Made by a program: the position numbers and the translations under genes. This document shows, piece after piece, positions 2,546 through 41,838 of a stretch of DNA of 64,000 nt (positions are counted from its first letter, which is position 1; each line of letters opens with the position of its first letter). The notes under the pieces were generated by a model. That model was not told where the DNA came from, did no database searches, and saw only the letters and a program-made list of their open reading frames with translations. This DNA is from Powellomyces hirtus. Taxonomy: Eukaryota > Chytridiomycota > Chytridiomycetes > Spizellomycetales > Powellomycetaceae. The stretch spans positions 72,501-136,500 of the forward strand of contig JAHLKG010000030.1 of the NCBI GenBank assembly GCA_025526995.1, given 5' to 3'.

Positions 2546-3572
2546 ATGAGCACAACACCACAAACGAGGTATGTAAGGGACGGGTTAGATGGTGTATTTG
2601 AAGAGAGCAGTCCAATTTGCATTGAAAAACGAACTGACATGCGTCCCGCAGTTTTTTTGTTTTTTTTTGTAAGTAGGGCATTATGGGAACCGTAGCAAGA
2701 TTGTTTAACCTAGGCGGAGGAGGTGGTGCAAGTGGTAGTGGTGGAAGTGGTGATGGTGAAAGGAAACGATCGTCGCAACCACCCAAAGAGGGACATTATC
2801 TCGAAGGTTTTGCAGCCACTCAAGCTCGCATGGCGGAAGAAGAACTGCAAGCAACCGTTGCGCTCCTGCGATACCTTGCCAAAGCCTGCCCCCCTCAGAC
2901 CTTACAGCGGAAGGGGACTGCCTGGTACTGGTGGCCCATGACAGACATCAATCACATCAATACCTTGGCACATCAACTCGAGTCTGGTATGGTGGCTGGC
3001 TGGGCTCTTGTTGGCAATGAAGTAAGGAACTACGCTGGAGGGGAGCGTGTTAGGGGGATATGTGTACGCCAGGAGCTCTTGGGTATGTATGGACACGTTA
3101 AACATTGTCTTTGTGCATGTAAACAAATTTGGCAATCAAAAACACCATTTACTGCGGCTGTATGTGCTGGACACAGTAAATGGTTTTTTTGCACGCAATC
3201 GGAGTAGCTATACGCTTTAACGTTATTTAATATGTCCACTCACTTCTACCTCTATTTATTGTTGTAGGCGGCGACCTCAAGTTTCATCCTGTCGATCGCG
3301 ACCATCACGCAATGTGGCACATGCCAAGAGTCCCTAGAACTGCTGAGGTGGACTGCAGCCGTGGCTCACAGTGCTCAAATGCGAAAGCCAGAGAAAACCC
3401 TGCCTGGGAGAGGGAGTTCCTTCCACCAACGATCCCAACAGCTACTCGTGCGACTCGTGCAAGAATGGGCAAGGTTTTGACCAAAGAATCAATGAATCCC
3501 CAAGCTGATGAGATCATGACCGAGGATGAGCGGGATGAGCAGGAGGAGCAGGAGGAGGACAAGGATGAGTAG
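2546..3572 (+). CDS. Unknown spliced gene with Gly/Ser-rich N-terminus and acidic tail
   Basis: Proposed exons 2546-2568, 2652-2668, 2714-3082 and 3268-3572. Phase is kept through all three introns, giving about 237 aa; a simpler model starts at the ATG at 2683. After a Gly/Ser linker come an Ala-rich helical segment (ATVALLRYLAKA), a Trp-rich patch (WYWWPM), a segment with DINHINTLAHQLESG, then a Glu/Asp tail (EQEEQEEDKDE). I recognise no domain. The first intron is one 69-bp GGAC..GTCC unit plus splice sites, the third is a tandem pair. The gene sits beside the histone-like and recombinase genes that carry the same units, so it may belong to the same accessory cluster. The 17-nt T-rich second exon is the weakest part of the model. 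Confidence 0.55.
2578..2646 (+). repeat. 69-bp GGAC..GTCC unit 1 (intron)
   Basis: Exactly 69 bp, beginning GGACGGGTTAGAT and ending ATGCGTCC. It fills the intron 2569-2651: 9 bases before it supply GTATGT and 5 bases after it (CGCAG) supply the 3' splice site. Confidence 0.8.
3091..3159 (+). repeat. 69-bp unit 2 (intron, first of a tandem pair)
   Basis: Starts GGACACGTTAAAC eight bases after the 5' splice site (GTATGTAT). Its right end has decayed to ACTGCGGCT, but the 69-bp register holds. It is closely similar over its whole length to unit 11 (40460-40528) in the recombinase gene, in the same sense orientation. Confidence 0.75.
3169..3237 (+). repeat. 69-bp unit 3 (intron, second of the pair)
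   Basis: GGACACAGTAAAT to TTTAATATGTCC, 69 bp, separated from unit 2 by the 9-mer GTATGTGCT. Both lie in the 185-bp intron 3083-3267. Confidence 0.75.
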
Positions 3573-3576
3573 TGGC

Positions 3577-3616
3577 AGAGGGGAGGGGCAGAGGGGAGGG
3601 GAGGGGAGGGGAGGGT
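3577..3616 (+). repeat. G-rich tract of repeated GGGGA steps
   Basis: Runs of four G separated by single A or CAGA immediately follow the stop codon of the 2546 gene. The arrangement could form a G-quadruplex on the plus strand. Similar G tracts occur at about 12946-12970 and 13801-13818 in the same cluster. Confidence 0.6.
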
Positions 3617-3839
3617 TTTGATTGTTTTGCAATATAGTAGTATCAGTATTCATTTCAATCACATTCTGTTCCATTTCACACATGACACGCACACAGACAA
3701 TGCCACTAAAGAAGCAACCACCAAAGAAGCAACCACCAAAGAGGAAAAGGTCTCCCAGTCCCACAGCCTCAGACGAAGACCTTGAGACTGTTATGCAGAC
3801 AAAAGACTGGACCGCAGGGGTTCCCCCCAAGTCTACACT

Positions 3840-4276
3840 TGTGAGATGGCCATCATGGCATATTTATACTTTTACTTATTTTCGGCTAGTAAAAAGCCAT
3901 ATCCCAAGTTAAGGCAGACGCGCCTCATAAGTGATTACCCAATCCTTCATAAGCATCTCCACAAGTCTCAGCTCTGTCAGCATACCCTCGCAATGCGCAG
4001 CTGCACTGCCCAGATACACTGCCCCGCTGCATTGCCATAGATCCCTAGATCATCTCCCCGTTCTCCCCAAGTTAGCTAGAGACTAAGAACCCGAGAACCT
4101 CATATATAAACGAGAAGGAAAGCACCCCCGGTGGAGATCATCATCCATCAATACATCAACATCCAAAAACTCGAAATATCATATCATTTCCTCTCTATCT
4201 CTCGCCTCTTCTTTCTAAGAACGACTCCAAGTCAATGAACTTCATACCTCCCGCCTTGAAACATAGGCACCTCACA
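3840..4276 (+). repeat. 5' LTR of the gypsy-type element
   Basis: 437 bp bounded by the 6-bp inverted ends TGTGAG and CTCACA. It contains a TATA-like ATATATAA at about 4102. The next bases, TGGTAGCACCACAGCG from 4277, begin TGGTA like the tRNA primer sites of gypsy elements. Confidence 0.6.
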
Positions 4277-5122
4277 TGGTAGCACCACAGCGTCTTTCCT
4301 GTCAGAACTCACTTCTTCTCGCTCTTTTCCTTGATTAAAAACACAGTGATTCACGATGGCTGCACCCGGACCTGCTGCCTGGACTTTTCCCGCCGTAGGC
4401 CCTGCCCTGCAGAATGGTGACCGGCTCAACGAGATCACCTTACAAACGACTCTGGTTGCCAATACAAGACAATTCCATACTTCTCTGGCGAACACGATAT
4501 GGAACTGATCGATCTCTTCGTCACCACGAATGTCAGAGCTTGCAACCACTTTATCACGGCTTATACCGGCATCGCTTACAACGAGTTCAACTATTTCGAC
4601 GAGTACGCCATCACCAATATGGACCCTTCAGTCGTCGCCTGGCATGTCGCTATCATGAACAATCTTCACGTTCAACCCGCCACGCCGGCCGAAGGCGTTG
4701 CCGCTTGGTGGGCCACCCAGTTCTACCAACGATGGATGCCCCGTAACGTTACCAATTGCCTACATCAAGAAATGGCAGCTCTTTTGCTTGGAAACTCGCT
4801 TGAGGATTACATCCGTGAACTGGAATGATATCGACATCTTGAAACGATTGCTGTCCGCGCCAACGGCAATGCTACCAAACGACTTCTCCTTAAATCCGAG
4901 ATGATCAACATCTTTCGCGCAGGCCTTCTCCAACACGCAACCTACGGTCTTTACCTTGTCCAAGCCCTGCAAAACTTCATGACGATGAGACTTACCATTG
5001 GACAAGCGGTCACCTGGCCCCTGGCCGTAGTCTGCGTCCGAAACGCAGCAGCCTCCCGCAACCTGGTTGATGGCTACCTTACTACTCCCGCACGGGCACA
5101 AGCCAAGGCCCCTGCCCGATTC

Positions 5123-5489
5123 TATTGGAGATATCGGCGTTTCCAGTACTTTATCGGAAATGCAGAGGATTGGCCGAATTCGATGTGGCCTCCAGTATAC
5201 TTCGTAAAGGGGGTTTACAGAGCTCTTCTGTGATGCAGATGACGATGTAGCGTTGTCAGATGCACGGAGATGTAATGTATGTAAATGTATTTTTATGTCT
5301 TAAAGTCTTATCGGTAATGTCTCGCTTCGAGCGTTCTAATCTACTTTTTCTCCAATCACGTGATCACACGTGATCCAATTCAGCTCTTAGCGTTACCGGT
5401 ATGGTGGTCACGCGTTCTAGTCGGAGAATCCAAGTAAGGATCTAATGTAAGGACCAAACGTTGAGTGCGCAAGTCTCAACATTCCAATA
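5123..5489 (-). repeat. copia LTR (3' LTR in element orientation)
   Basis: 367 bp, TATTGG..CCAATA, preceded by TSD GATTC. Just inside it on the minus strand, at about 5490-5498, is a G-rich polypurine-like stretch (CAGGGGGTG). Confidence 0.9.
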
Positions 5490-5528
5490 CACCCCCTGTC
5501 CGAGCAATCGATCCGCGATGATGGGATT

Positions 5529-8500
5529 TTACTCATTCGGGAGCTCCGTCATGGACGCTTTCGTCATTGGCGTGATGGTGTTGTTGTAGTGCTTGATGCA
5601 CATGTTTTCGCGATGGTATTTGAATGCCGGGGCCGGTAAAGGCTTCGTAAGTGAGTCGGCTACCATTTCAGCGGTGGGTAAATACTCCAGGTGAATCTCC
5701 TTATCGATGTGATCACGAATGAAGTGATGTCGAATGTCGATGTGCTTGGTACGGGCGTGATGCACGGGATTCATTGCCAACGAGATGCATGACTGATTGT
5801 CTTCGTAGATCGTTGTAGCCCGAGCACTTTCATCGAGATATTCGGGGATTTGGAGTTCTTGCAGAAGTGAGCGAAGCCAGATTGTCTCTTGAGTGGCGAA
5901 GGAAAGTGCCATGTATTCAGCTTCGGTAGATGAGAGAGCAACGGTGGGTTGGCGCTTTGAAGCCCAAGTAACGGGGCCCGCATTTCCAATGTAGAAAAGG
6001 TAGCCAGTGATTGACCGTCGATCAATGATATTGTTTCCCCAATCGGCATCGCTGTAGCCGTGAAGGGTGACGTTATTTCCGCCGATGCAGAGGCTGTAAT
6101 CTGATGTTCCCCGTAGGTAGCGAAGAACGCGCTTGGCAGCTTGCAGATGTTGAGGCGAAGGGTTGCTTGCGAAGCGAGAAAGCATACTGACTGCGACAGC
6201 GATGTCAGGACGCGTGCATATCATCAGGTACATGAGAGAACCAACGATTTCGCGATATTCTCCTTCTTGCGGGTTAGGTGAAGTCTTTGTATTTTCGACT
6301 TTGTAGGGTTCGAGCTTGGTCTGGTCCATCGGAGTGTTGACGGGCTTGCAATCTTGCATACCAAAGCGCTCGAGGATGTCATTTACATATGACTCTTGAT
6401 CAAGATAGATGACGTGCCTTGAGTAATCGCGTCGAACTCTCATTCCTAGGTAGTGGTTGACTTCGCCTAGGTCTGTCATGTTGAACTCGTTGTGCAGGGA
6501 TGTCTTGATTGACGAGATTTCCGATTCGGTCTTTGCGAAAATGAGGAGATCGTCGACGTAGACGGAGATGTACTGCGATGAGTCACTTTCAGGTAAAGTT
6601 CTGATGTAGACGGCATTGTCATTTGCCAGGCGCTTGAATCCCAAAGAAGTCAGTTCTTTGTGAAGTAGGGAGTACCATTCGCGCGGGGCTTGTTTTAGAC
6701 CGTAAAGGGCCTTTCGGAGTCGAAGGATGGTCCCGGGCGGAAAGCCAGAGCCTTCAGGAGCATAGATTAGGATGGTCTCGGTAACAATCCCATTCAGGAA
6801 TGCGGTTACTACATCCATTTGATGGCATTTCAAGCCTAGACTGGCGGCGAGAGCGAGAAGGACGCGTTGGGTAGCAATCTTGGCAACCGGAGCGTAGGTT
6901 TCGTTGTAGTCGATGCCGTAGCGTTGTTCGAAACCTTTCACTACAAGCCGGGCCTTGTATCGTTGGGGTTGACCATTCAGGTCTCGCTTAATCTTGAATA
7001 CCCATTTAGTGCGGATGGGCCGTTGATTGTGCGGTAAGGATTTGGGGTTAATGACTTCCCATGTTTCATTGGTGTGAAGGGACTTCAATTCGGCATTTAT
7101 GGCCTCGGTCCACTTTGGCGCGTCGTCTGATGAGAGCGCTTGTTTGTAAGTTTGGGGTTCTTCGGTACTTGCAGCCGAAAGAGCGCTCGCCGTCTTCTCG
7201 TTGATGTAGTCAGCGAAGACTGTCAAATGATTGACATTTTCGAGCGGTTCCCATGTATTATCTTTGTCTTCGAATCCTAGCCATTTGCAGAGGAATTCGG
7301 GGCCTTCCGGGCCATCACGTGAGTCGAGAATCTCTTTGACTTCGTAGAGTTCTTCGGGCGGAATGTAGTCTTTCGCGAGTTCGAGTGCTGAGTTTCGTCG
7401 AACGTTACATCGCGAGAAATGACTATTTCTTGACGGTTGTCATCCCAACAGCGGTAAGCGCCGTCAAATTCGTAACCGATGAGTTTGAGACGTGTGGCGC
7501 GCGGTGCCAACTTTGAGACTTGTTTTCTCTTGACGAGATGCACGAAGGCATCGGCCCAAATCACACAAAGGTGAGAAAGTGAGGGCTCTTCGCCGTTGAG
7601 CCGTTCGTACGGCGAAATGTTGTTGTTGGACTTGTGGGGTAGGCGATTCCGTAAGTAGACTGATGTAGCCGCTAACTCGGTCCAGAGTTGTTTCGGGATG
7701 CCGTATGAGTGTTCCAAAGAACGAATGGTGTCGAACAGGGTGAGGTTGAACCTTTCAGCTACACTGTTAGACTGTGGGGAATCTGCAGCGGTGAGTTCGT
7801 GCAGAATGCCCTTTTTCGAAATGAATTCTTTCAGATCGTGATTGACAAACTCCCCCCCTCGATCGGAATGAAGTCGTCTGACCCTTTCGTTGGTCTGTTT
7901 TTCGATGAGATTGATGAGTTCAATCAATTTTGCAGTAGATTCGCTCTTCGTCTTCAAGAAGAAGATCCATGTGAAGCGTGAATAGTCATCGATCACAACG
8001 AGGGCATATTTCTCATCGCCAACCGCGGGTATGTGCGGACCGTTTAGGTCAAAATGTAGGCGATCGAGTGGCGTCTTGGACCGTGTCATCGTACCGTTGA
8101 ATGGTGAGCGCTTGTGCTTACCAAACTCGCAACCTTTGCAGACTTCGTTGGTCATTGGGAGCTTGAGTTGCTTCATGATGTGAGTGCCAGGATGGCCCAA
8201 TCGGTGATGCCAGAGGGTTCCTTCGTTGACTGGAAAAGAGGGACCAGAACAAGCCCCAGAAGAAGCCGCCGAAGCAGCGGCGGCGGCGGCGGCGCCATCC
8301 TCGGCATCATCCGATGCCTTTGGGGCGGCCGGCCCCCCACCACAGCACCCACAACTCTCACTCTCCAGTGGGGGGCTGGCCAGCCCCCTCACTGGAGAGT
8401 ATGGGGCCGACCAGCCCCGATTTGGGGCGGCCGGCCCCTCCGTCGTGGCTTGGAGCGGGGTAGAACGCGTGACCGAGATGCCGGTAGCGTCTGTCGATAG

Positions 8501-10351
8501 GTGGAGTGCTTGAATCAATGTATCGGACGCGTGTGTTGGTACATTGGACGCGTTTGTCCATTTTGTCAATTCGGTAGATGTAATTTTCGACGAGTGTGTC
8601 GGTACATTGGACGCGTGTGTCCTTGAGCGAGTTTGGGTAGCGAAAGCCATCGGAGTTGGCGAGATGTGATACATTCCTCGAACGAGAGGTATGGTGATGT
8701 CGTTCGTAGTGCCATTGCAGTCTTGAATGACAGCGCTTTCATCTTCAAAGGTGACTCTCTTTCCATCTTTGGCGAGTGCGGAGACCGAGATGAGAGTCTT
8801 GGCGAGCTTCGGAACGTAGAGAATATCTGTGAGGGGTACATCTCCATCTGGAAGCTTCAAGATAGCATTCCCTTTCGCTTTGGCATCGAGAAAGGCGTTG
8901 TTTCCAAATCTGACGCGCGTTGAGTGCTCTTCGTAGGATTCGAGAATGGAAATGTCATTCGTCATGTGCTGTGAGCAGCCCGAATCCAGGTAAGCCAATG
9001 TAGTGGCGTTATGTGCTTCTGCAATGTTGGCATTAGCAGCGGGTTTTAAGGCTTCGACTGCCTTGGCTTTGAGGGGACAATTGAATGGGGTATGTTCATT
9101 CGAATTGCATAACCAACAGGGGAAGTTCTGTCTCTTCTTCGAGTCTGTGGTCTTCTTCGCGTCGGTCTTCTTGTGACTTGAGCCGTCTTTCTTTGAAGGT
9201 TGGGCTTCGAGCGCGATGTTTTCGCTCTTCTTGGCGAAACAGTTGTTTTGGTTACTCTTGTTACTTCCGTTATCCAGACGCTTGGCAGCTGCCATGAGGC
9301 CATGGAGATCCTTGAAACTTTGAGTTCTGACGAGCTCTGCATGATGTTCATTCATTCCGCGAAGATAGAACCACTTGTAGATTTCGAACGGCACCTTCAA
9401 GGGGATTTGACTTGTGATCTTCGTGAATGAGGTATTGTACTGCGAGATGGAATGACTTCCTTGTCGGAGTCTTTCAAGTTGAGTGAGCAAAGTTTCTTCG
9501 TGATCGCTTGGTTGGTAACGCGAGAGGAAGGGAGGCTTGAAGGATTCCCAATCCGTGATGGGCTCCACCAGCCCTTGTTCGGCATCTTTCTGGTGATTAC
9601 GATACCATTGTTTTGCTTCGCCAGAGAGCTTTGTGAAGATGAATGAGAGTTGTTCTTCTTCAGATACAGGTTTTAGGCGAAAGACTAGAGTAAGTTGATC
9701 GATGAAGTCGGCGAGTTTTGAGAGATTTCCCGTCCCGTCGAATGTAGATACTGCATCGATCGCAGATTTGAAGTATGCGAATGATGTACGTTGTGCGTCT
9801 CGATCATCGCTCTTTCTGCTGCTCGTAGTTGTTGTGCTCTCCGTTGGGGAAGACGGACGAAAGTGAGGGGCAACTGGGGCTTCAACTTCGCCGTGAGTAA
9901 TGTGTTAATGTAGAAAAGGGTACTCAAGGCCCGCTTTTGGGCTTCTCATTGGTGAAACGGCCGTAGGATGACAACCGATATGAGGCTTTTCGTACTTCTT
10001 GGGTTGTTGATGGGAAGTTGATGTAGCGAGAGGGTTTGAACTAGTCAATAAAGTCCTCTCCAACCTGTCCATCCGATGGTCGAGCTTTTCGTCGATTTCC
10101 ATCTTGAACCTCTGCAGAATTTGCATGACAATGTCAGTCGGTACTTCGGACGGTACTATCGCCGAGTCTGCATGAATTTCTCCATGATTCATCTCATCCA
10201 CATCGGCATCTGCGTCGTGGGAATCATGGTAGATTGAGGCATCGATATTAACGTCTTCTTCAGCGTCAGGACCCCGTTGGGCTTCTCGTGTGGCTTGACG
10301 GGCTTGTTGGCGGGTCTGCACTCCTAGAATGGGAGATCTTGCAGTAGGCAT
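5529..10351 (-). pseudogene. copia gag-pol (one nonsense codon, one frameshift)
   Basis: ATG at 10351. Order: gag N-terminus; in-frame TAA at 9907-9905; gag core (about 9700-9300, ITDWESF, TSQIPLKVPF); zinc knuckle CWLCNSNEHTPFNC; protease YLDSGCSQHM; a Pro/Ala-rich GC-rich linker (about 8470-8220); GAG-pre-integrase WHHRLGHPG; integrase core with HFDLNGP, HSDRGGEF and NSVAERF; a frameshift at about 7400-7370; a chromodomain (YEVKEILDSRD, FLCKWLGF, NTWEPLENV, about 7325-7230); RT with TAFLNG and YVDD; RNase H with YSDADWG, TEAEY and TKHIDIRHHF; stop at 5529. All catalytic motifs remain, so one or two mutations inactivated an otherwise complete element. Confidence 0.9.
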
Positions 10352-10447
10352 CTTGACGGTGTGCTCGGTACTTTCTTGGCACTTGAATTTGACGGAAGAC
10401 TTGTAGTTTACAGGTTTTACGAAGGGAGAATGATTCGAATTCGACCG

Positions 10448-10465
10448 GTCTCAGGGCTCATAACC
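10448..10465 (-). promoter_or_regulatory. copia primer-binding site matching the initiator tRNA-Met anticodon arm
   Basis: Directly inside the 5' LTR the plus strand reads CAGGGCTCATAACC (10452-10465), the anticodon stem-loop of fungal initiator tRNA-Met. This fits priming by a 5' half-tRNA cleaved in the anticodon loop, as known for Drosophila copia, rather than by the tRNA 3' end. Confidence 0.7.
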
Positions 10466-10832
10466 TATTGGAGATATCGGCGTTTCCAGTACTTTATCGG
10501 AAATGCAGAGGATTGGCCGAATTCGATGTGGCCTCCAGTATACTTCGTAAAGGGGGTTTACAGAGCTCTCCTGTGATGCAGATGACGATGTAGCGTTGTC
10601 AGATGCACAGAGATGTAATGTATGTAAATGTATTTTTATGTCTTAAAGTCTTATCGGTAATGTCTCGCTTCGAGCGTTCTAATCTACTTTTTCTCCAATC
10701 ACATGATCACACGTGATCCAATTCAGCTCTTAGCGTTACCGGTATGGTGGTCAAGCGTTCTAGTTGGAGAATCCAAGTAAGGATCTAATGTAAGGACCAA
10801 CCGTTGAGTGCGCAAGTCTCAACATTCCAATA
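10466..10832 (-). repeat. copia LTR (5' LTR in element orientation)
   Basis: 367 bp copy followed by TSD GATTC at 10833-10837. Confidence 0.9.
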
Positions 10833-11927
10833 GATTCCACCCTTACTCGGGCATCGAACAAGCCCCCTCTCGTACCGCTCGACGGACCTTTCAACAACCC
10901 GCACCAGTTACTCCTTGAAGATCAACAATCGAAGGCCAAACAGCTAAGCAAGCGATCCCCCAAACACCAAGAAAGAGACCTAGCTTACCAACGCCAATTA
11001 CTACACCTCAAGGAACTCCTGCACGCAGACCAGCATTTCCTAGAACTCCAGCGACTCCCAAAACGCCTATGAAACGTGGGAGTGCTATGCTCTGCAAACG
11101 ATGCGGACGAACCAATCACAAGATCCAGGACTGTTTCGCTAAGCGAGACGTCAATGGCGAAGCAATCGGGGAATCAGCTACTAGCAGCACTTACCCGGTT
11201 AGACAAGTCAGTCGAATCAGCGAAATCAGAGCCGATGAGGAAGACCAAGACTCCCAGGATTTTCTGGACGGTTGGGAGTAGAAATCGGTTCCTCTCAACC
11301 CAATAAGGGACATACTCTCTTCCCTGAATCCGATATTCCCTGGATGACATGTAATCGACCACCCGAAAGCCCTAAGGGCAATCCTACATCTATTCGACGA
11401 ATGGATTTTCAAACCCGACTTCAACCTGGCAAAGCTTCAAGCGCACCCAGTTGGGTCTTCCGAGTCAAAATGGGCACCAAGCCAATTATAGCCCTCTTGA
11501 ACACCGGCTGCAATACCATGGTCGTTCAAGACCGCGTAGCAGATGAACAAAGACTCGAGAAGAGACCTCTTGATAACCCATACGACATTGATACTGCCGG
11601 TGCTGGCCAAAGGATCCGAATCACCTCCTTTACCACCCAATCAATCCAAATTTTCAATAATGTCTTGCAAGACTACGACTCTGTTGCTTCTTTCCATTTC
11701 GAAATTGCGCCTATTGGAATCCCTCTTATCTTGGGACTTCCATTCCCCACCAATATATTAAGTATGGAAGGAAAACTACTTATATCGGAGTTGATCACGT
11801 GGGTTCACGTGATTGCGTGATACGCCCTGCGATGGCGCAGTTATGACTCGATGACAGAGTCTGTACGTGCTAACACCCGCCCATGCTTTGCGGTCAAAAC
11901 CATCATCTAATTTGTCCGAGTACCGCT

Positions 11928-11996
11928 GGACAAATTAGATGATGTTTTTGAATGCGCTTTGCCATTCTGAACCCTTTCTGATGATTTATTGTGTCC
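11928..11996 (+). repeat. 69-bp unit 4, with truncated upstream partner
   Basis: GGACAAATTAGAT to TTTATTGTGTCC, 69 bp, inside a probable H3-like intron (5' GTACCG at about 11920, 3' splice ATGCCAG ending 11997-12017 region). Its left end forms a 17-bp perfect inverted repeat with 11901-11917, which looks like the surviving right end of a second unit cut by the retroelement. Confidence 0.65.
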
Positions 11997-12203
11997 TCCA
12001 TCTTCCTTCAATGCCAGCTATTACGCCTCCAAAGTGGGCGCATTGATCCCAAAGGCACCATTTCGATGATGCGTCTGCGGGATCGTCGTCCCGGTGTGGA
12101 CAGACGAGTTGAACGCAAAAGGAAAGCTGCGTTGGAATGCTAGGGGCATGGATGTACTGCAAGAAGGAGCAGAGCTCTTTCTGGCAAGTTTTTTGGCAGA
12201 CTC

Positions 12204-12478
12204 TGTAATGAGGCGTGGCTCACCAGCCTAAGCCTAGACACGCATCGGGAAGGGTCCCGTGCGAGATGGATGCTAGCGTCAGCATCCTGAAGGGTACTAG
12301 ACCTCAGGGATGGCCACGGATGGCCATCACGTGACCAGGGCCACTCCGCGGCCTAGAAGAAAAGTAGAAATGCTCCAACGAGGGCGCATTCAAGACTTAG
12401 AGATCTTACAGTAGAATTAGACATAGGGAATTCCCGAATAGAAGACTAGACTCTGGCAACGGACCTAGTCTTATTACA
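12204..12478. mobile_element. Solo LTR copy A (275 bp)
   Basis: TGTAATGAGG..TTATTACA flanked by the 5-bp duplication GACTC (12199-12203 and 12479-12483). It interrupts the histone-fold exon of the H3-like gene. Same family as 39325-39599. No internal region, so it is an LTR-LTR recombination product. Confidence 0.9.
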
Positions 12479-12551
12479 GACTCGCTCCTGGTGTCTTGCC
12501 ATACCAGGCAATCCACCGTCACAAAGTACGACGTAAGTGCATATCTGATTA

Positions 12552-12621
12552 GGACGCATTAAATCAGTTATTTGAACGATTGGTCCATCCGCTGGAAGCA
12601 AAAACTCAATTTACTGTGTCT
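12552..12621 (+). repeat. 70-bp unit 5 (intron of H3-like gene)
   Basis: GGACGCATTAAAT to TTTACTGTGTCT, one base longer than the others. It occupies most of the intron 12533-12635 (GTAAGT..TTGCAG). Confidence 0.75.
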
Positions 12622-13001
12622 TCATTACATTGCAGGTTCAGATTGCGGCAGCTCTGGGCGGGCGCCTTGATCCTGAACGCGTTAAGGAGTTGCGGCAACT
12701 GCAGATCTGCGATGAGGCCGCCAGGGAGAAGGCGGCTTCTCTAAAAAGGAGAAAGGCGAAGGGGAAGGGGAAGGCAACGGCGACGGAGTCGGAGTCGGAT
12801 TCTTCATCCGAATATGAGCCTTACCCGCAAAAGTGGGACGATGAGGAAGACGAGTACAATCCACACGGTGAAGGGCCTTTGGGTGGGTCTGCTTCAGGTA
12901 CCGCTGGTACCCCTGGTGTATCCTATGCAGATGTATAGTTTTGCAGCGGGGGGGTGGGGGGGGGAGGGGTTGTTCCTATTATTTAGCATAAAGGTCCTAT
13001 A

Positions 13002-13070
13002 GGATGCATTAAATAGCACATATGAAAGCAGCTTTTCAACACGAGCACAATGAAAACATTTGACGTGTCC
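13002..13070 (+). repeat. 69-bp unit 6
   Basis: GGATGCATTAAAT to GACGTGTCC, 69 bp, in the 394-bp gap between the H3-like stop (12938) and the recombinase stop (13333). The gap also holds a G-rich tract at about 12946-12970. Otherwise nothing else is recognisable there. Confidence 0.7.
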
Positions 13071-13082
13071 ACACGGGATGCT

Positions 13083-13151
13083 GGACACAATAGATAGTTT
13101 ATTTGGAGGTCAACTCTATCTGCCAGCGCAAAGAACACATATAAAGCGTCC
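13083..13151 (+). repeat. 69-bp unit 7
   Basis: GGACACAATAGAT to AAAGCGTCC, 69 bp, 12 bp after unit 6; the spacer ends GCT as in the 3160-3168 spacer. May be part of an unrecognised intron or UTR. Confidence 0.7.
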
Positions 13152-13650
13152 AAGTCACTAGCTAATCTGCAGCAGGTGCTATAGGAGGACAACTAAGTTC
13201 TATATTATGACGCCTTGTCTTGGGTGGTGGCGATATGTGTGCCCTGTACTTATCCAGAGTCAATCCAAGCCCTTCTCTCTCCATGTCCATCATCTCGGCA
13301 ATCTCATATCCTGTGCATCCAGACTCTCTCATTCACTTGTCGATTTCATTATATATCACCTTGCGCTTGCTCCAGTATTTCCGTTCGGTTGAACTATGCG
13401 TTCGCCACGTTGCTTTGTGTGCCACCTCTAAGCTATGTACGGAAGGATGTCGTCTAACAACCGTCCCCTTCTCATCAAGAATTGGCTGCCCTTCTTCATA
13501 TTCCAACCAAACTTGAAGCACTGTCTGGTGATGCCGATAAAGCTCATATGGCAGCCATTTGGCAGACTCGGAGCCCTGTGTCTGTTGTGGTTGTGGTTGT
13601 TGTTGTTGTTGTGTCTCTTCTGCGTACAACTGCTGTTCCGTGTGGTTTCT

Positions 13651-13719
13651 GGACAGAATAAATGATGTATTTCAATTTAGAGCGCGGCTTGGGAGCGAAA
13701 AAGATCAGTTAACCTGTCC
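13651..13719 (-). repeat. 69-bp unit 8 (recombinase intron)
   Basis: Minus strand GGACAGGTTAACT to TTTATTCTGTCC, 69 bp of the 80-bp intron 13728-13649; the 3' splice AG follows directly after GTCC. Homologous along its length to unit 9. Confidence 0.8.
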
Positions 13720-13856
13720 AACGCTTACCTAGTAGTTGTACGCGACAGGGGTTCGTCGTCCTCTTCTTCTGACGTTGTTGACGTTGGAAAGAGTAATTGC
13801 GGGGGGGGGGGGGGGGGGCATCCGTCAGCTGTGACATAGTAGACTGTAACTGGCGT

Positions 13857-13908
13857 TATGACAGTGCATGGGCCTATAGTGTACACTATAGGCCCATGCA
13901 CTGTCATA
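13857..13908. repeat. Perfect 52-bp terminal palindrome, PLV1 left end
   Basis: Two 26-base arms meet at GT|AC with no loop, starting at the first base of the element. The identical palindrome is at the other end (39000-39051). Confidence 0.95.
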
Positions 13909-14708
13909 GGTGTAGTTGACTATGGCCTATAGTTGGCCTAAGGCTTATAGTTGAACTAGCTAAACAACTATGGCCTATAGTCAACTATGGCCTATAGTTG
14001 GGACAGACATTACGTAAGCTCCTTATCATCTGCTCTGCGCCACATTATATAAGCTTCTCATCACCTGCGCCACCTTACGTAAGCCAATGTGATACCTACA
14101 TGTAGGCACATTGAACCAATGTGACCCTACATGTAGCACCCTACATGTAGGCTATCCCAGATGCTAGATCTAGTATGCTCATTATCGATAATGAACCTTT
14201 CAAAGTCTGAACCAATTGTGACTCATCAACCTACATGTAGGCTATCCAGTCTGAACCAATTGTGACTCATCAACCTGATCCCAGATGCTAGATCTAGTAT
14301 GCTCATTATCGATAATGAACCTTTCAAAGTCTGAACCAATTGTGACTCATTACCTACATGTAGCACCCTACATCTATGCCCTACATCTATCCTAACTCAG
14401 ATGCTAGATCTAGTATGCTCATTATCGATAATGAACCTTTCAAAGTAACCAATTGTGACTCATCTTTTGATCACCAGACCATGTGATCTGATATTGCACC
14501 ATCATGTGATCTGACATTCAGTCAATGACCCCTACATCTAGGCTATCCCAGATGCTATATCTAGTATTATTGAGGCCCTATCCGATCTACTTGCATTCTT
14601 GGCCCTTGATCATCAATGTGCACTAATCCGAATCCCAAAAATGTCATGAGCCTCAAATGGCTTCGCAATGATGCTTTTGGACACTGCTCACTCGTATTCA
14701 GCGATTGT

Positions 14709-15390
14709 GCAAATGGACAAAATCAGGAATTACATATATTACATTTCCTGATTTTGTCCATTTGCCCAATTCCATTAGAGGCCTCAAACAGGTTCCAATG
14801 TAGCGGTTCGAACCACTTTTTGCATCATTGCTTGTTTTCATTTGGATTCAGAGATGATTCAAAAACATACCGCAATGATGCTTTTTTGACACTGCTCACT
14901 CGTATCCAGCGATTGTGCAAATGGACAAAATCAGGAATTACATATATTACATTTCCTGATTTTGTCCATTTGCCCAATTCCATTAGAGGCCTCAAACAGG
15001 TTCCAATGTAGCGGTTCGAACCACTTTTTGCATCATTGCTTGTTTTCATTTGGATTCAGAGATGATTCAAAAACATACCGCAATGATGCTTTTTTGACAC
15101 TGCTCACTTGTATCCAGCGATTGTGCAAATGGACAAAATCAGGAATTACATATATTACATTTCCTGATTTTGTCCATTTGCCCAATTCCATTAGAGGCCT
15201 CAAACAGGTTCCAATGTAGCGGTTCGAACCACTTTTTGCATCATTGCTTGTTTTCATTTGGATTCACAGATGATTCAAAAAACATACCACAATGATGCTT
15301 TTTTGACACTGCTCACTCGTATCCAGCGATTGTGCAAATGGACAAAATCAGGAATTACATATATTACATTTCCTGATTTTGTCCATTTGC
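14709..15390. repeat. Four tandem 208/209-bp hairpin units, left TIR
   Basis: Hairpins at about 14709-14765, 14917-14973, 15125-15181 and 15334-15390. Arms GCAAATGGACAAAATCAGG and its complement flank a short AT-rich loop. Between them lies a constant spacer with CCATTAGAGGCCTCAAAC and a TTCGAA core. Arms are perfectly paired in every copy. Confidence 0.9.
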
Positions 15391-15640
15391 ACAATCTCCT
15401 AAAAGGGTTCAATCGGTTACCAGTGGGGCGAAGCGCAGCAATAAATGGCATCATGGCTCTGTGCCAGATCACGTGATCCGACTTCGGGTCTTCCACCAGA
15501 TCATGTGATTGCGCCATGCTCTCGTATCAAGCTCAATCTTCAACGCATGTCATTGCTTGCATAAAATTTTTCTATATCCACACATCAGAATCAGAGTCTG
15601 TCTACTATACACATACGCAATGTCAGCTTAGCTTGCTCAG

Positions 15641-26536: not shown

Positions 26537-26546
26537 TATTTTTGGT

Positions 26547-28718: not shown

Positions 28719-28771
28719 ATGGAATATCTTTTCTGCACATAGACATATACAGAACGTGTCCTTTGCAGTCG

Positions 28772-35209: not shown

Positions 35210-35270
35210 TCATGTGGCCAGGTTCGTCGGCCGGCTTGTTGCTGCATCTTGAGCTGGATGACCAGGCTTG

Positions 35271-35278
35271 TTTTTTTT
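35271..35278 (+). promoter_or_regulatory. T8 tract upstream of the 43-aa gene
   Basis: T8 then CTCTACTC, ending 27 bp before the ATG at 35306; supports the small gene being real. Confidence 0.4.
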
Positions 35279-35305
35279 CTCTACTCAACTATCAGAGCCA
35301 CACCA

Positions 35306-35437
35306 ATGCCTACCGTGAAGAGAACAATCACCACTACAAAGGGCATTCCAAAGGGCCTCCTTGCTGGGCCCAAAGACCTCAGCAAGCTCCCACCGGGGCT
35401 GAAGAAGTATTGGCAGGCCAAGCGGGCAGGGAAATGA
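35306..35437 (+). CDS. 43-aa basic peptide (PLV1)
   Basis: Starts MPTVKRTITTTKG and ends LPPGLKKYWQAKRAGK. Very basic, with a P.GLKKYW motif like small Lys-rich peptides of large DNA viruses. Between fibre and protease genes, with its own T8 tract. Possibly a condensing core peptide, by charge only. Confidence 0.5.
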   Translation: MPTVKRTITTTKGIPKGLLAGPKDLSKLPPGLKKYWQAKRAGK

Positions 35438-35560
35438 TCAAGATACATTGCACTACATGCAACGCCAGCTGCGCTAACTAAGATGGAAAGGATCTCATCA
35501 CTCACTGATTTTAACTTGCAATCTACATACATAGTACCTACATACATACATACATACACC

Positions 35561-36553
35561 ATGGCTGCCACGCACTTCAAACTCAATTATACGTTTGATG
35601 AACCTGATAGTCGTGACAAACCGCTCAAAGTGACCTATAGAACGCCCACCACCCCCGAGAAGCTCCCGGATGAAACCGATCTTGCACCCTTCATGGGTCC
35701 TGTTCACGATCAGGGGTCACTAGGCTCTTGCACGATGCATTCCATCGGGTATCAGTTGACTTACAATCGCAAAAAGGCAACAGGTGTGGTTGACCTCTTC
35801 TCGCGGCTGTTCATGTATTATGAAGGACGAGCCCGAGCAAACTATCCTGTTACTCGGGACACCGGTCTCACAATGCGACAAGCCTTTATTGGCGCTGCAT
35901 CGGGGATCGTTCAAGAAGAGCTGTGGCCATACGACACCAAACGTTTTGCAGAAAAGCCTGATCCCAAAGTGTATGCAGCAGCGCAACAATGTCTTACTTA
36001 CTTAGCAGTTGAACAGAGTCTTCCAGAGTTACGACGCTGCTTGATCAAGAGCCCTGTTAGTTTTGGAATGCGCCTCCAGAGTTCATTTCTGAGCGCCGCA
36101 ACAGCGCGGAATGGGCAGGTACCTGTTCCAATTGCCAATGAGAAGAGCGAGGGCGGACATGCAATGCTACTGGTTGGTTACTCGTCTCGTACAAAGAAGT
36201 TCAAAGTCATGAACAGTTGGGGTGAGACATGGGGAGCACGTGGATACTGCTATATACCAGAGAAGATGATCTTGGACTCAAAATCGTGTGGCGACATGTG
36301 GACAGTAAGAGACTTTGCTTGGCAAGAGAAACCATCGGTGGCCTTGCATGAGCCGGTTGCGATTGAGGAGAGCAAACAGCCGACACAGGCAGAGCCTGAA
36401 CTTGCACATGAATGGATGCCCAATCTGATGTATGGGCGAGGGACAAACGTGACATACGAGTTGGAACAATACATCTGCCAGGTTGCTCACAAAAGCATAC
36501 CAATGTGGACACCCAGCGCAGCCAGAATATTATGGCGTAAGGGAAACATATAG
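35561..36553 (+). CDS. Papain-like (C1A) cysteine protease (PLV1)
   Basis: 330 aa from ATG 35561 (context CACCATGG); an in-frame ATG also exists at 35483. Catalytic features: oxyanion Gln and Cys in HDQGSLGSCTMHS, His in GGHAMLLVGY, Asn in FKVMNSWGETWG, then RGYCYIP. No secretion signal or obvious propeptide. A C-terminal extension of about 90 residues follows. Polintons and adenoviruses use a C5 adenain-type protease for virion maturation; none is seen here, so this enzyme may replace it. The fibre-adjacent position supports a virion role. The PLV2 counterpart, if any, is beyond the window. Confidence 0.85.
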   Translation: MAATHFKLNYTFDEPDSRDKPLKVTYRTPTTPEKLPDETDLAPFMGPVHDQGSLGSCTMHSIGYQLTYNRKKATGVVDLFSRLFMYYEGRARANYPVTRDTGLTMRQAFIGAASGIVQEELWPYDTKRFAEKPDPKVYAAAQQCLTYLAVEQSLPELRRCLIKSPVSFGMRLQSSFLSAATARNGQVPVPIANEKSEGGHAMLLVGYSSRTKKFKVMNSWGETWGARGYCYIPEKMILDSKSCGDMWTVRDFAWQEKPSVALHEPVAIEESKQPTQAEPELAHEWMPNLMYGRGTNVTYELEQYICQVAHKSIPMWTPSAARILWRKGNI

Positions 36554-36631
36554 TACACTTTGTTGAATCACATACAACTTGACTATCTACAATGTCAAAA
36601 AGCCAGCAAAGCTGGTATTGTGCCGACCGCG

Positions 36632-37528
36632 CTACTTTCGCTTTTTGCTTTTCGATGGCTTGGGCTGTGTCTTGAGATTCTCCAATCGCTCCCCGACACC
36701 TTGGCGAAGTTTCCGTCCCATCAACACGTCCGAGGTGTTTATCCTCTTGGCTCCATAGCGAATCGTAGGATGGTGCCTTGTTTCTGAAAGGGCCTTCAGC
36801 ATCTGGATCAATGCAGTGGTGGCCGCTCGCATCGTTGTAGGAGGGTCCTCCATCACATTCTCGGGCAAACTCAACTCCATCGGGATTGCAGGCCACAGCT
36901 TTCGTATGCCCACATATTCTTTGTCTGCAGCAACCTCAGTGTACTTTTCGACAATTCTCAGCGTCAGTTCCTGAGATAGACCGTCAATGGGCTTCAGCGC
37001 AGCTCGGCGGTCATCAACATCTTGCAGATGCTTTGCCATCTGGGTTTGCATTTCCGCGGAGGTAGCCAGAGTGCCGATCACAGTGTTGAGAGTGGCATCA
37101 ATTTGGCTCAAGCGAGGGTTTTCGCTGATTTGTCGGCAAAGAACCTTGCGAGTCTCGTCCACATTCTCATTGGTCGATTCTGTACTCTCTTGAACTGATT
37201 GAACGTCGTTACGAAGCTCGTGAAGGACTTTTCGAGTGTGCTCCTGCCCATCAAGAAGTCGTTTGAGCATGGCCAGTATTTCCGTGTTGGCTGGCGCTGC
37301 AGCTGGTTGGCTGTCCTCGTCAACTTCTTCGTCAAGTTCGGGAACATAGCAGGATTTCTCCAACTCTCTGCGAGCATGATCAAATGCCTCATCCATCCTG
37401 TCCCAGCAACCTATGATCTTGGCGGCAAGACTTCCCGGTCTGACCTGGTGATTGTCGACTTTGTCATCTTCGTTTTGGTGGACGAGTACGGGGGGCTGGG
37501 ACTCAGAAGAATGCATAGCAGCAGACAT
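36632..37528 (-). CDS. Unknown coiled-coil protein (PLV1), 298 aa
   Basis: ATG 37528, 79 bp inside the right TIR. Acidic segment (PELDEEVDEDSQ), then a long heptad-rich helix (MLKRLLDGQEHTRKVLHELR), then a globular part (GIRKLWPAIPMELS) and a basic tail (KPSKSKKRK). No family recognised. Being the gene nearest the right terminus, it might bind the ends; unproven. Confidence 0.6.
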   Translation of the reverse strand: MSAAMHSSESQPPVLVHQNEDDKVDNHQVRPGSLAAKIIGCWDRMDEAFDHARRELEKSCYVPELDEEVDEDSQPAAAPANTEILAMLKRLLDGQEHTRKVLHELRNDVQSVQESTESTNENVDETRKVLCRQISENPRLSQIDATLNTVIGTLATSAEMQTQMAKHLQDVDDRRAALKPIDGLSQELTLRIVEKYTEVAADKEYVGIRKLWPAIPMELSLPENVMEDPPTTMRAATTALIQMLKALSETRHHPTIRYGAKRINTSDVLMGRKLRQGVGERLENLKTQPKPSKSKKRK

Positions 37529-37606
37529 GGTTCGGTTCGTCTTGGGGGAGGTAGGTGCCTTAAGCGAGTCAAAGGACTGCTGGAATGTGAAGACTATGCC
37601 AACCCA

Positions 37607-39051
37607 AATCACATGATCTGGTGGAAGACCCAAAGTCGGATCACGTGATCTGGCACAGAGCCATGATGCCATTTTGGGATGCACTTCGCTCCACTGGTAA
37701 CCAATTGAACCCTTTTAGGAGATTGGGCAAATGGACAAAATCAGGAAATGTAATATATGTAATTCCTGATTTTGTCCATTTGCACAATCGCTGGATACGA
37801 GTGAGCAGTGTCAAAAAAGCATCATTGCGGTATGTTTTTGAATCATCTCTGAATCCAAATGAAAACAAGCAATGATGCAAAAAGTGGTTCGAACCGCTAC
37901 ATTGGAACCTGTTTGAGGCCTCTAATGGAATTGGGCAAATGGACAAAATCAGGAAATGTAATATATGTAATTCCTGATTTTGTCCATTTGCACAATTGCT
38001 GGATACGAGTGAGCAGTGTCAAAAAAGCATCATTGCGGTATGTTTTTGAATCATCTCTGAATCCAAATGAAAACAAGCAATGATGCAAAAAGTGGTTCGA
38101 ACCGCTACATTGGAACCTGTTTGAGGCCTCTAATGGAATTGGGCAAATGGACAAAATCAGGAAATGTAATATATGTAATTCCTGATTTTGTCCATTTGCA
38201 CAATCGCTGAATACGAGTGAGCAGTGTCCAAAAGCATCATTGCGAAGCCATTTGAGGCTCATGACATTTTTGGGATTCGGATTAGTGCACATTGATGATC
38301 AAGGGCCAAGAATGCAAGTAGATCGGATAGGGCCTCAATAATACTAGATATAGCATCTGGGATAGCCTAGATGTAGGGGTCATTGACTGAATGTCAGATC
38401 ACATGATGGTGCAATATCAGATCACATGGTCTGGTGATCAAAAGATGAGTCACAATTGGTTACTTTGAAAGGTTCATTATCGATAATGAGCATACTAGAT
38501 CTAGCATCTGAGTTAGGATAGATGTAGGGCATAGATGTAGGGTGCTACATGTAGGTAATGAGTCACAATTGGTTCAGACTTTGAAAGGTTCATTATCGAT
38601 AATGAGCATACTAGATCTAGCATCTGGGATCAGGTTGATGAGTCACAATTGGTTCAGACTGGATAGCCTACATGTAGGTTGATGAGTCACAATTGGTTCA
38701 GACTTTGAAAGGTTCATTATCGATAATGAGCATACTAGATCTAGCATCTGGGATAGCCTACATGTAGGGTGCTACATGTAGGGTCACATTGGTTCAATGT
38801 GCCTACATGTAGGTATCACATTGGCTTACGTAAGGTGGCGCAGGTGATGAGAAGCTTATATAATGTGGCGCAGAGCAGATGATAAGGAGCTTACGTAATG
38901 TCTGTCCCAACTATAGGCCATAGTTGACTATAGGCCATAGTTGTTTAGCTAGTTCAACTATAAGCCTTAGGCCAACTATAGGCCATAGTCAACTACACCT
39001 ATGACAGTGCATGGGCCTATAGTGTACACTATAGGCCCATGCACTGTCATA
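37607..39051 (-). repeat. PLV1 right terminal inverted repeat (1445 bp)
   Basis: Reverse complement of 13857-15510 with three hairpin units (about 37727-37783, 37936-37992, 38144-38200) instead of four. Otherwise very similar, so the arms are kept alike. Confidence 0.92.
39000..39051. repeat. Perfect 52-bp terminal palindrome, PLV1 right end
   Basis: Identical to 13857-13908. Followed directly by TSD GGCGT (39052-39056). Confidence 0.95.
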
Positions 39052-39218
39052 GGCGTGCTGCTGGAGATCGACAGATGTCGGATATCGCTGTTACCATCTC
39101 GTGCACCGCAACAGAGGTGGCTTCTTGCCGAATGCCCAGTGCGTTACAATATGTCTGAAAAGTCCCTTGCATCTTCTCCGCTATACGGCTGGCGTCCTTC
39201 CGGGTATGTCTGATCTCT

Positions 39219-39287
39219 GGGCAAAGTAAATCGTATATTTCAACTCCAAATGCGGCTCAGAACTGAAAAAGATGCTTTAACGTGTCC
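39219..39287 (-). repeat. 69-bp unit 9 (recombinase intron)
   Basis: Minus strand GGACACGTTAAAG to TTTACTTTGCCC, 69 of the 80 bp of intron 39296-39217. The 3' AG follows the unit directly. Confidence 0.8.
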
Positions 39288-39324
39288 TGTACATACCTTC
39301 GATGATTTCTTTACCCAGTCTGAT

Positions 39325-39599
39325 TGTAATGAGGCGTGGCTCGCCAGCCTAAGCCTAGACATGCGCCGGGAGGAGCCCCGCGCGAGATGGATGCTAGCGT
39401 CAGCATCCTGAGGGGTACTAGACCTTAGGGATGGCCACGGATGGCCATCACGTGCCCGGGACTGCCTCGCGGTCCAGAAGAAAAGTAGGAATACTCCGAC
39501 GAGGGTGTATTCAAGACTTAGAGATCTTACAGCAGAATTAGAGATAGGGAATTCCCAAATAGAAGACTAGACTCTGGCAACGGACCTAGTATTATTACA
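39325..39599. mobile_element. Solo LTR copy B (275 bp)
   Basis: TGTAATGAGG..TATTACA flanked by CTGAT (39320-39324, 39600-39604). Same length and family as 12204-12478. Inserted in a recombinase exon; removing one TSD copy restores the frame. Confidence 0.9.
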
Positions 39600-40014
39600 C
39601 TGATAGACATGTCGTTTTGATTTGAGATTCCGCTCAACTCAAAGGAGAGTGCTTGATTACCAGTGGTAATCATTGATGCAATTTGTGGAACAACATATTG
39701 AAGAGTTGCCAGGGTTGGATTGACGACGCTGCGCATCCTGTCCAAGAGCTCTGTCTTGTAGAGAAGGAATGCTGGCGATCGGAACAGTGGATGGGTCCAT
39801 ATGGCATGCAATGGAAATTTGTCTATCAAGACTGCAGCATCCTGAATGACAACACGGCACATTTTCTTCAACAGAATTGCAAAGCCTCGTCCAGCAATGT
39901 CCGTAACTTGTGGATTACCCAATGCTTCATCAACAAATGGAAACACGGCAGCTTCTAGTTCTTCAGGGACATCAATACATGCGCGGGGTAAGAAGAACCC
40001 GCCACCTCAAAGAT

Positions 40015-40083
40015 GGACGCGTTAGAATGTGTTTTTTGCATTCCCTTTATGGATGTCACACAATTAATCAATTTAATGCGTCC
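40015..40083 (-). repeat. 69-bp unit 10 (recombinase intron)
   Basis: Minus strand GGACGCATTAAAT to TCTAACGCGTCC, in intron 40088-40006 (GTAAT before, ATCTTTGAG after). Shares its right third with unit 12. Confidence 0.8.
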
Positions 40084-40459
40084 ATTACCTTGTATCAGCC
40101 ATTGACCTAATGCGCGCATAGCTTGTTTCGGGAGCTCCAAATCGTAAGACATATTCTTTGCTGTTTGGTCCCAGCCTCCCATTCTGTTAACGTCACTTCC
40201 ATCCACGCCTCGAGATGTTGCTGTACGGACTGCAACGCCACGTGGGAGGTGTGTCACTTTTGATACATTGATGTTGCAAGCCTTGAGAGCCCGCTGATAG
40301 ATTTGCGGATGAGATTGATATGACATGCCATTGGGATTATTGTCCTCGCATTCGTCTTTTCCCTCTCCCGCACCATCAACATCTACTTTTGGAGGTATTA
40401 GATAGCGGCATTGCATGAAAGAGAACGGGAGGCATTCAAAAACATTGTCCAGTGTAGAC

Positions 40460-40528
40460 GGACGCAGTAAATGGTGCTTTTGACTGCAAGCTTGGCTTAT
40501 GTTCACAAAGACGATGTCTAACGTGTCC
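40460..40528 (-). repeat. 69-bp unit 11 (recombinase intron or exon edge)
   Basis: Minus strand GGACACGTTAGAC to TTTACTGCGTCC, 69 bp. Begins 11 bases after the GTAAGT donor at 40540. The best in-phase acceptor (CCAAG ending at 40491) lies inside the unit, so its right half may be exonic. Confidence 0.75.
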
Positions 40529-40948
40529 CGTTTTACTTACATGTGTCTGCATGTTTCCGCTTTCTCGACTTCGCTCGCTTTGTATCTCTCTTCATGAAGT
40601 ATGTGTTGTACCATGACTTGTTATCGGTGAAGTCTGGCAGTTGTTCATTGGTCTTGTGATATTGATAGAAAAGGAAGAACGCGGCATGGCCAACAGGGCA
40701 TAAGGCAGCCTCTTTATGGCGCATGCAAAGCACCTTTTCCTTGCGGCCTACTTTGTTTGTTTTCCCTTCGCGTGAAATGGTTATCATAGCGAATGCTGGC
40801 GTTGGTCCTTCCTCTTTTGGTAGATCAGAGCTGAACATATATGAGAGCTGAAGCAGTCTGATACTCTGTCCACGCCCCATAGTCGAATGTTGAAGAAGAA
40901 AGCATGCAGCATTCTGCAAGCCCATCTCTGGTTGTGCCTACGGATATT

Positions 40949-41017
40949 GGACGCATTAGAATGTCTTTTTGCATAGATATCATGGATCATGGTTGAAATA
41001 CTTGATTTAATATGTCC
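40949..41017 (-). repeat. 69-bp unit 12 (recombinase intron)
   Basis: Minus strand GGACATATTAAAT to TCTAATGCGTCC in intron 41021-40938 (GTAG donor, CCGTAG acceptor). Confidence 0.8.
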
Positions 41018-41585
41018 CTACCTGTCCCCACCAATGCGCAACTAGGGCACTCTGTTCTGCTACGCTGTACATATCAATGAGTGTTCCGACGCCACGGTCT
41101 TCAAATCCTTTTAACTCTTGCTGGAGTACTCCATGGGCGTAGGCTTTGACCATGTCGGAGAGTGTCTTTGTACGGGGGCAGTTATCTTTTGTATTCATGT
41201 TGAGTTGACATTGATAAGACCACAAGTTGACGGTTGCCTTAATAAACTGCTCGATGCTCGCCTTGCTGTATGGTTTGTTCATTCCTTTTTCATCTTTGCG
41301 GCTTGAACCTTGCGGTATAACAGCTTTATTCAACCATAAAAGAACTTTGTCTGGCGCGACTCGCTCGTCCATGCCTAGGGAGCGACACCAATCTTTGTAC
41401 CACTTTGCGCGCCATTCATATGCATTCCGAGTGGCCACAGGCCGTTGATTGTGGTTGGCAACGAGTTGATTCAAATTGTTCGCATGCAGGGCCATGAGGT
41501 TTTGAACGTCCTGGTTCATTGCGGTGCCATGGAGCGCTGCTGCAGCAGCAGGTGGTAGGTTGCACAGGTTCATTGCACGGGAAGG

Positions 41586-41654
41586 GGACGTAGTAAAGGT
41601 CGATTCCGAGGCGAGCGAGTTGGAAGCAGTCCAAAGAAGCAAAAAAGACTGTCC
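41586..41654 (-). repeat. 69-bp unit 13 (upstream array)
   Basis: 69 bp, 12 bp upstream of the recombinase ATG. Nearly identical to units 14 and 15. Confidence 0.8.
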
Positions 41655-41667
41655 AGTGGAAGGAGGC

Positions 41668-41736
41668 GGACGCAGTAAAGGTTGATTCCGAGGCGAGCGA
41701 GTTGGAAACAGTCCAAAGAAGCAAGAAAGACTGTCC
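41668..41736 (-). repeat. 69-bp unit 14 (upstream array)
   Basis: 69 bp, GGACAGTCTTTCT to TTTACTGCGTCC on the minus strand, 13 bp from unit 13. Confidence 0.8.
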
Positions 41737-41769
41737 CAATGGTCCCAGTGGTCCACAGCGGAAGGAGGC

Positions 41770-41838
41770 GGACGCAGTAAAGGCCGATTCCGAGGCGAGC
41801 GAGTTGGAAACAGTCCAAAGAAGCAAGCAAGACTGTCC
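41770..41838 (-). repeat. 69-bp unit 15 (upstream array)
   Basis: 69 bp, 33 bp from unit 14. The three-copy array has no in-frame stop, giving a spurious N-terminal extension of the recombinase frame that lacks any ATG. Confidence 0.8.

Follow-up and report, generated by a model that had tools for sequence, protein, structure and literature searches.

Paired half-sites at a fixed 69-bp spacing in the predicted introns of a Crypton-type element of Powellomyces hirtus

A 64,000-nucleotide stretch of the Powellomyces hirtus genome (assembly GCA_025526995.1, contig JAHLKG010000030.1, positions 72,501 to 136,500 of the forward strand; hereafter the window) carries a Crypton-type element of ~6.3 kb, in which short units bounded by GGAC and GTCC recur at an almost constant length of 69 bp. 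The locus raises the question of what fixes the length of such units while their interiors vary, and what the units are. We consider the chances about even that they represent an old, introner-like family whose members are paired half-sites and which had already filled this Crypton when it spread here. The genome searched comprised 29.26 Mb in 60 contigs, labelled C1, C3, C22, C30 and so on. Long copies of the element are present in C1, C3 and C22, with two more in C30 (in tandem, head to tail), and fragments occur in C25 and C17. The five long copies were aligned by script.

A unit-like 69-mer was found at all 15 starts given in a preliminary description of the window (numbered here u1 to u15), including the single 70-bp unit, u5, which starts at 12552. 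The GGAC and GTCC ends described there are strict in 11 of the 15; the units starting at 3091 and 12552 end in GGCT and GTCT, and those at 13002 and 39219 start with GGAT and GGGC, respectively. Strict GGAC...GTCC pairs were observed 11 times in the window at a total length of 69, and 0–2 times at any other length from 49 to 89. In 100 dinucleotide shuffles of the window, strict pairs of length 69 averaged 0.74 and never exceeded 3. Two damaged units had been omitted from the original list. One (u11b, 40391–40450) is degenerate and 60 bp long, and the other (u4a, left of 11928) is split by an insertion, such that only its right part survives (11878–11917); it is whole in C1, C22 and C3.

Each unit comprises two inverted half-sites of ~23 bp. 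A single consensus describes the two ends, with conservation concentrated in blocks at approximately positions 1–4, 9–12 and 18–23. The 23-bp cores between them are essentially unrelated (mean identity of 0.28). The inverted ends and variable interiors had thus been described correctly, and the units do have the terminal inverted repeats of a miniature inverted-repeat transposable element (MITE). The proposed homology of particular pairs was borne out for u2/u11 and u13/u14 (core identity of 0.61 and 0.83 in the C1 copy), but u8/u9 reached only 0.43, unchanged when one of the two was reversed, and u10/u12 fell outside the 14 best rows of the ranking, each of which scored at least 0.43. Partnered half-sites were defined in the five element copies as those matching the consensus in 15 or more of 22 letters and having a converging partner within 46–400 bp, leaving out unpartnered ones. 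All 66 had an outer spacing of 69 bp (61 cases) or 70 bp (5 cases), although the copies carry common units and the cases are hence not independent. Apart from a few damaged units, the length shifts by no more than 1 bp, with 70 bp in one family. A single core indel was seen, compared with ~10–20 expected under simple drift at the overall ratio of 0.061 indels per substitution; this expectation is approximately halved if the ratio for the units themselves (0.035) is used, and it presumes that the cores diverged by mutation, being void if they were different from the start. A fixed length with so free an interior is unlike an ageing MITE family, as the preliminary description had argued.

The two ends of a unit showed no covariation, with 62.3% pairing in register compared with 64.8% when partners were shuffled. 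Pairing fell to 31.5–44.2% when the ends were slid by 1–3 columns, as for any inverted repeat. The RNA folding energies of 11 pieces were mostly unremarkable (z of −3.41 to +1.02). The RNA pairing between inverted ends that is expected of symmetrical fungal introner-like introns was thus not found, and the lack of covariation and the mostly weak folding scores ruled out an RNA hairpin as the main constraint. As each end obeys the consensus independently, the pattern points to DNA recognition by a protein, with the spacing as the constraint. The half-sites are probably protein-bound, and the fixed length would then be the spacing of two bound half-sites.

An excess of the units over control sequence was found genome-wide once the extended ends were used, so that the units withstand the refutation test set in the preliminary description. 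No such excess was seen with short patterns. The pattern GGAC-N59..65-GCGTCC gave 222 + 230 matches, compared with 226 + 272 for the reversed-pattern controls, and GGACRNRKTARA-N40..60-GTCC gave 42 + 40, compared with 55 + 53. In the latter search, all but two of the rows within element copies were 69 bp long, and the six rows outside them spanned 58–72 bp. A half-site search allowing up to three mismatches returned 75 matches, compared with 6 in the control, and 72 of the 75 were inside element copies or fragments, the others being only at C6, C40 and C54. The key letters of both ends occurred at a spacing of 68–70 bp in 37 places, compared with none in the reversed control and none at 80–82 bp. 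All but two of these places (C16:244223 and C26:339997) were inside the element. The C6 place (1188733–1188801), which is duplicated as the same stretch in C40, has one good half-site and is bounded by GGAT...ATCC at exactly 69 bp; that in C54 (18443–18510) has one good half-site and GGAC...GTCC at 68 bp. The second end scored 9/22 in both C6 and C54, a level met by 14% of background positions. No longer match to the element was found at C6, C40 or C54, and six-frame inspection around C6 and C54 revealed no clear host splice signals. The few outside places are possibly old, decayed units. No autonomous partner with matching ends was present among the half-site matches, and a collection of viral contigs held no match to the recombinase or to the unit pattern. 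With these few doubtful exceptions, the units are confined to one element family; the dispersed family that had been proposed for this host was not found, and neither was the spread through unrelated host genes that is expected of introners.

The element encodes an NDC10_II/GCR1_C recombinase (gene B, minus strand), a histone-H3-like protein (gene A2, plus strand) and an unknown protein (gene A1, plus strand). All nine definable introns, eight coding and one predicted in a leader, contain one or two units each and hardly any further sequence. On the plus strand, the predicted 5'-leader intron of A1 (2569–2651, 83 nt) contains u1 (2578–2646), and A1 intron 1 (3083–3267, 185 nt, GT-AG) contains u2 (3091–3159, its 3' end decayed to GGCT in the window copy) and u3 (3169–3237). 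A2 intron 1 contains u4 (11928–11996), and A2 intron 2 (12533–12635, 103 nt in the window, GT-AG) contains u5 (12552–12621). The introns of gene B (Bi1 to Bi5) are on the minus strand: Bi1 (40938–41021, 84 nt) holds u12 (40949–41017); Bi2 (40386–40540, 155 nt) holds two units, u11 (40460–40528) and u11b; Bi3 (40006–40088, 83 nt) holds u10 (40015–40083); Bi4 (39217–39296, 80 nt) holds u9 (39219–39287); and Bi5 (13649–13728, 80 nt, GT-AG) holds u8 (13651–13719). Across copies, A2 intron 1 measures 185–194 nt and A2 intron 2 103–106 nt, and Bi4 is 85 nt in C3. When the eight coding introns were tabulated copy by copy, leaving out two rows that contain a retroelement, 37 of the 38 rows had GT-AG boundaries and the remaining one AT-AG. 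Introners are recognized by similar introns at five or more positions; the nine introns here are alike at the unit ends only.

The reading frames were restored by GT-AG removal and not by unit excision. Removing Bi1–Bi3 from the window copy gave one NDC10_II frame, after which exon 4 has a frameshift. Excision of the units alone leaves 11–56 nt, which broke the frame in six of the eight coding introns and kept a stop codon in Bi1; only A2 intron 2 stayed open, with 11–12 extra codons. The GT-AG introns are presumably spliced, judging from these frames. A second NDC10_II gene is present at C27:10341–11735, in one frame with one stop, and is 30% identical to gene B. Its alignment with gene B stays in a single frame through the sites of Bi1 (one-residue gap) and Bi3 (no gap), which makes seamless intron gain plausible.

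All compared sites were occupied in all five copies, except for the insertion-cut unit in the C30 copies and a diverged tandem set on the minus strand, comprising u13 (41586–41654, in the 5' leader of gene B), u14 (41668–41736) and u15 (41770–41838). This set has two units in C1 and C22, and three in C3 and both C30 copies. The dispersed copies or insertion polymorphism of a MITE family were not observed. Substitutions among four copies were about equally frequent in the ends (38/390), the middle (31/390) and the core (27/256) of the units, and showed no bias among codon positions (110/1039, 97/1038 and 112/1037). The non-coding stretches outside units varied more (196/1005), partly from poor alignment. 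No present-day constraint on the unit ends was seen in this even variation, which indicates that the copies are drifting neutrally and that the conservation of the units must date from an earlier active lineage. The intron-making system looks old and no longer moving in this genome. The earlier interpretation, a size constraint on mobilization or processing, is supported in part, as regards the constant length with a free interior; there was no sign of present mobilization, and exact excision of the units is contradicted for most introns.

We propose that a unit would be a minimal symmetric insertion, in which two inverted ~23-bp half-sites, with their outer edges a fixed 69 bp apart, enclose a core of free sequence. 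Stretches of the CTAAY or CTGAC type, which we take to be branch-point-like in either orientation, occur in the inverted ends, and a unit landing in a gene would be spliceable through flanking GT and AG. Unit-by-unit insertion would have produced all of the recognized introns of the element, and also the copies in its non-coding parts. We further infer that a protein reads the half-sites, that the units were inserted as DNA and that the introns are spliced. All of this would have preceded the entry of the element into this genome or its amplification there, and may have taken place in a different host.

Several observations weigh against this introner-like origin. Introners normally populate host genes, which are almost free of the units here; in recent introner families the similarity covers the whole sequence, whereas the units share only their ends. 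As there is no empty site among the five copies, insertion was never seen directly. A permutation test for target duplication at the units (k = 3–12) showed no excess (p of 0.10–0.70); GTATGT and GAGTA repeats flanking two units were rejected as target-site duplications on the basis of this test. Five units (u6, u7 and u13–u15) are outside recognizable introns, with u6 (13002–13070) and u7 (13083–13151) located in the interval where the 3' ends of A2 and B converge, without clear splice sites. The C27 relative has a stop codon and a gap near the Bi2 position, where it is uninformative, and it may be damaged or contain a separate intron. Finally, the apparent periodicity of the conserved blocks (p of 0.0004) ignores the clustering of neighbouring positions, and its best period is 9–9.5 bp, compared with 10.5 bp for one turn of DNA.

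The units may instead be cis-acting sites serving the element itself, in partition, synapsis, regulation or chromatin, for which introns are simply a tolerated place; we regard this as possible, yet clearly less probable. The candidate binder would be element-encoded, such as A1, the GCR1_C recombinase or the H3-like protein. Such a role would fit the near-exclusive presence of the units in the element, their symmetry and fixed spacing, the non-intronic copies, the density of 16–17 unit sites in about 6.3 kb, and the presence of genes for a GCR1_C protein and for a histone in the element. However, all nine defined introns are mostly unit, which suggests that the units make introns rather than hide there. 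Furthermore, TGTGGCC-like repeats (seen by eye) and not the half-site lie close to both ends of the element, so that the target read by the recombinase is probably a different one. The introner-like origin is favoured over cis-acting sites, although the two are compatible. A private introner system, in which the element's own DNA-binding machinery would copy half-site pairs at the 69-bp spacing within the element only, with introns as a by-product, appears rather doubtful to us. The putative binder would be the GCR1_C recombinase, A1 or the H3-like histone; the tetramer footprint of the latter, ~70 bp, would be near the unit length.

That these are ordinary introns, alike merely through splicing signals or a hairpin that aids splicing, is unlikely. 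The branch-point-like unit ends and the better pairing of the ends in register than when slid would be compatible with this, and fungal introns of 80–90 nt are common; but ~23 bp are conserved at both ends, including in units outside introns, the length is constant, and the ends pair no better than with shuffled partners, with mostly unremarkable folding energies. A free MITE family active in this host is very improbable, despite the short length and terminal inverted repeats of the units and the borderline places at C6/C40, C54, C16:244223 and C26:339997. Outside the element there are just 3 of 75 half-sites (those at C6 and C40 belonging to a single stretch that is duplicated) and 2 of 37 pairs, there is no target duplication, and the copies have no presence/absence difference; confinement to element copies effectively refutes such a family. 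Least credible of all is the excision of exact 69-bp units from DNA, similar to the internal eliminated sequences of ciliates. While the unit ends are precise and 69 is divisible by 3, the frame test fails in seven of the eight coding introns, which rules this out unless excision also takes the flanks.

The recombinase of gene B matched PF16787 (NDC10_II, 1.5e-35) on the spliced window copy and PF12550 (GCR1_C, 2.6e-13) across Bi5 in the C22 copy, and thus has both the tyrosine recombinase and the GCR1_C region of a CryptonF element. Its exons are present in five copies, and the gene is broken by a stop codon or frameshift in every long copy. In the window, the main part with the NDC10_II region (39057–41573, minus strand, ATG at 41573) has the frameshift in exon 4 together with a 275-bp repeat (39325–39599), and is separated from the 3' part with GCR1_C (~13177–13856, minus strand) by a virus-like element. 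Gene A2 has a histone fold (PF00125, 3e-15), with histone H3 as the best solved match (9.8e-13), and is a transposon-borne histone-H3-like gene (3700–3839 and 12018–12938). Its exon 1, with the gene start (3700–3839), is truncated by the insertion zone; exon 2 carries the histone fold (12018–12532) and includes a 275-bp repeat (12204–12478); and exon 3 runs to the stop codon (12636–12938). A fragment at C17:562400–563800 has the A2 exon and the 70-bp unit, ~1 kb from a different H3-like stretch. Gene A1 (exon 1, 2683–3082; exon 2, 3268–3572) matched no domain in a Pfam search.

The element ends, TACTGTGAAGG and GTTTAGGTACT, share only ACT/TACT, compared with direct repeats of 4–6 bp in CryptonF. 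The window copy (2258–42164) starts with the left end TACTGTGAAGG, and its right portion extends to the insertion of a second virus-like element, with the last ~40 bp past this insertion and outside the window. It is joined head to tail through a common TACT to its tandem sister (~C30:139461–148490), as expected of a recombinase inserting next to itself. The window copy is disrupted by a retroelement zone (~3840–11877) that includes a Copia element (~5122–10832), and the 275-bp repeat is inserted twice in both this copy and its tandem sister. Virus-like element I (13857–39051, 25 kb, terminal inverted repeats) is inserted in gene B with a 5-bp duplication, GGCGT, and is not part of the Crypton. 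Virus-like element II (~25 kb, terminal inverted repeats) extends from 42165 to beyond 64000. Both are Polinton-like by gene content and encode an integrase with a chromodomain. Element I also encodes a Herpes_ori_bp-like helicase, a papain-like protease and a 2148-aa F5/8 protein, and element II a Prim-Pol/DUF5906 protein, an A32-like ATPase and a DNA methylase. Elements I and II, as well as a third one located in C3, are each embedded in a Crypton copy, with 5-bp duplications.

Introners with inverted repeats but without target duplication, or with both splice sites taken from the insertion site, are described by Gozashti et al. 2022 (PMC9860276), who report ascomycete introner families with neither inverted repeats nor target duplications. 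The units resemble the introners covered there in being short repeated sequences that act as introns (a prediction here), with inverted repeats and co-opted splice sites, and differ in their near-confinement to one transposon, the sharing of ends only and the fixed length. The symmetrical sister stwintrons of Hypoxylaceae and the introns derived from them, as outlined in PMC8469720 and PMC12403724, likewise have inverted-repeat symmetry, seamless positions and no target duplication; however, they are similar throughout and scattered in host genomes, with a symmetry proposed to act in double-stranded RNA. Compared with these stwintrons, the units lack end covariation and include non-intronic copies. 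CryptonF elements, according to PMC3212892, share with this element a tyrosine recombinase region with GCR1_C, the lack of long terminal repeats and a short shared end sequence; this element adds the H3-like gene, another gene and nine half-site-pair introns. The candidate introners of mirusviruses (PMC12768974) are similarly introner-like introns of a mobile genome and not of host genes, but they are defined by intron sequence similarity and belong to a virus, not a Crypton. Among the papers searched, none combined "introner" and "Crypton". Cryptons are reportedly named among introner sources in a 2025 paper on the horizontal transmission of introner transposons. Among the papers listed in literature searches, none concerned a histone-carrying Crypton by its title or the start of its abstract, which is a weak indication.

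The origin of new introns is a long-standing question, for which this element offers a compact case: its units have symmetric ends of the DNA type, a fixed spacing and random cores, give no signal of RNA pairing and lie almost wholly within one small element. Binding to so short a half-site can be tested directly, and the genes of the element narrow the candidate binders down to a few. A Crypton with a histone-H3-like gene is also of note given that yeast Cbf2/Ndc10 is reported to derive from CryptonF (PMC3212892).

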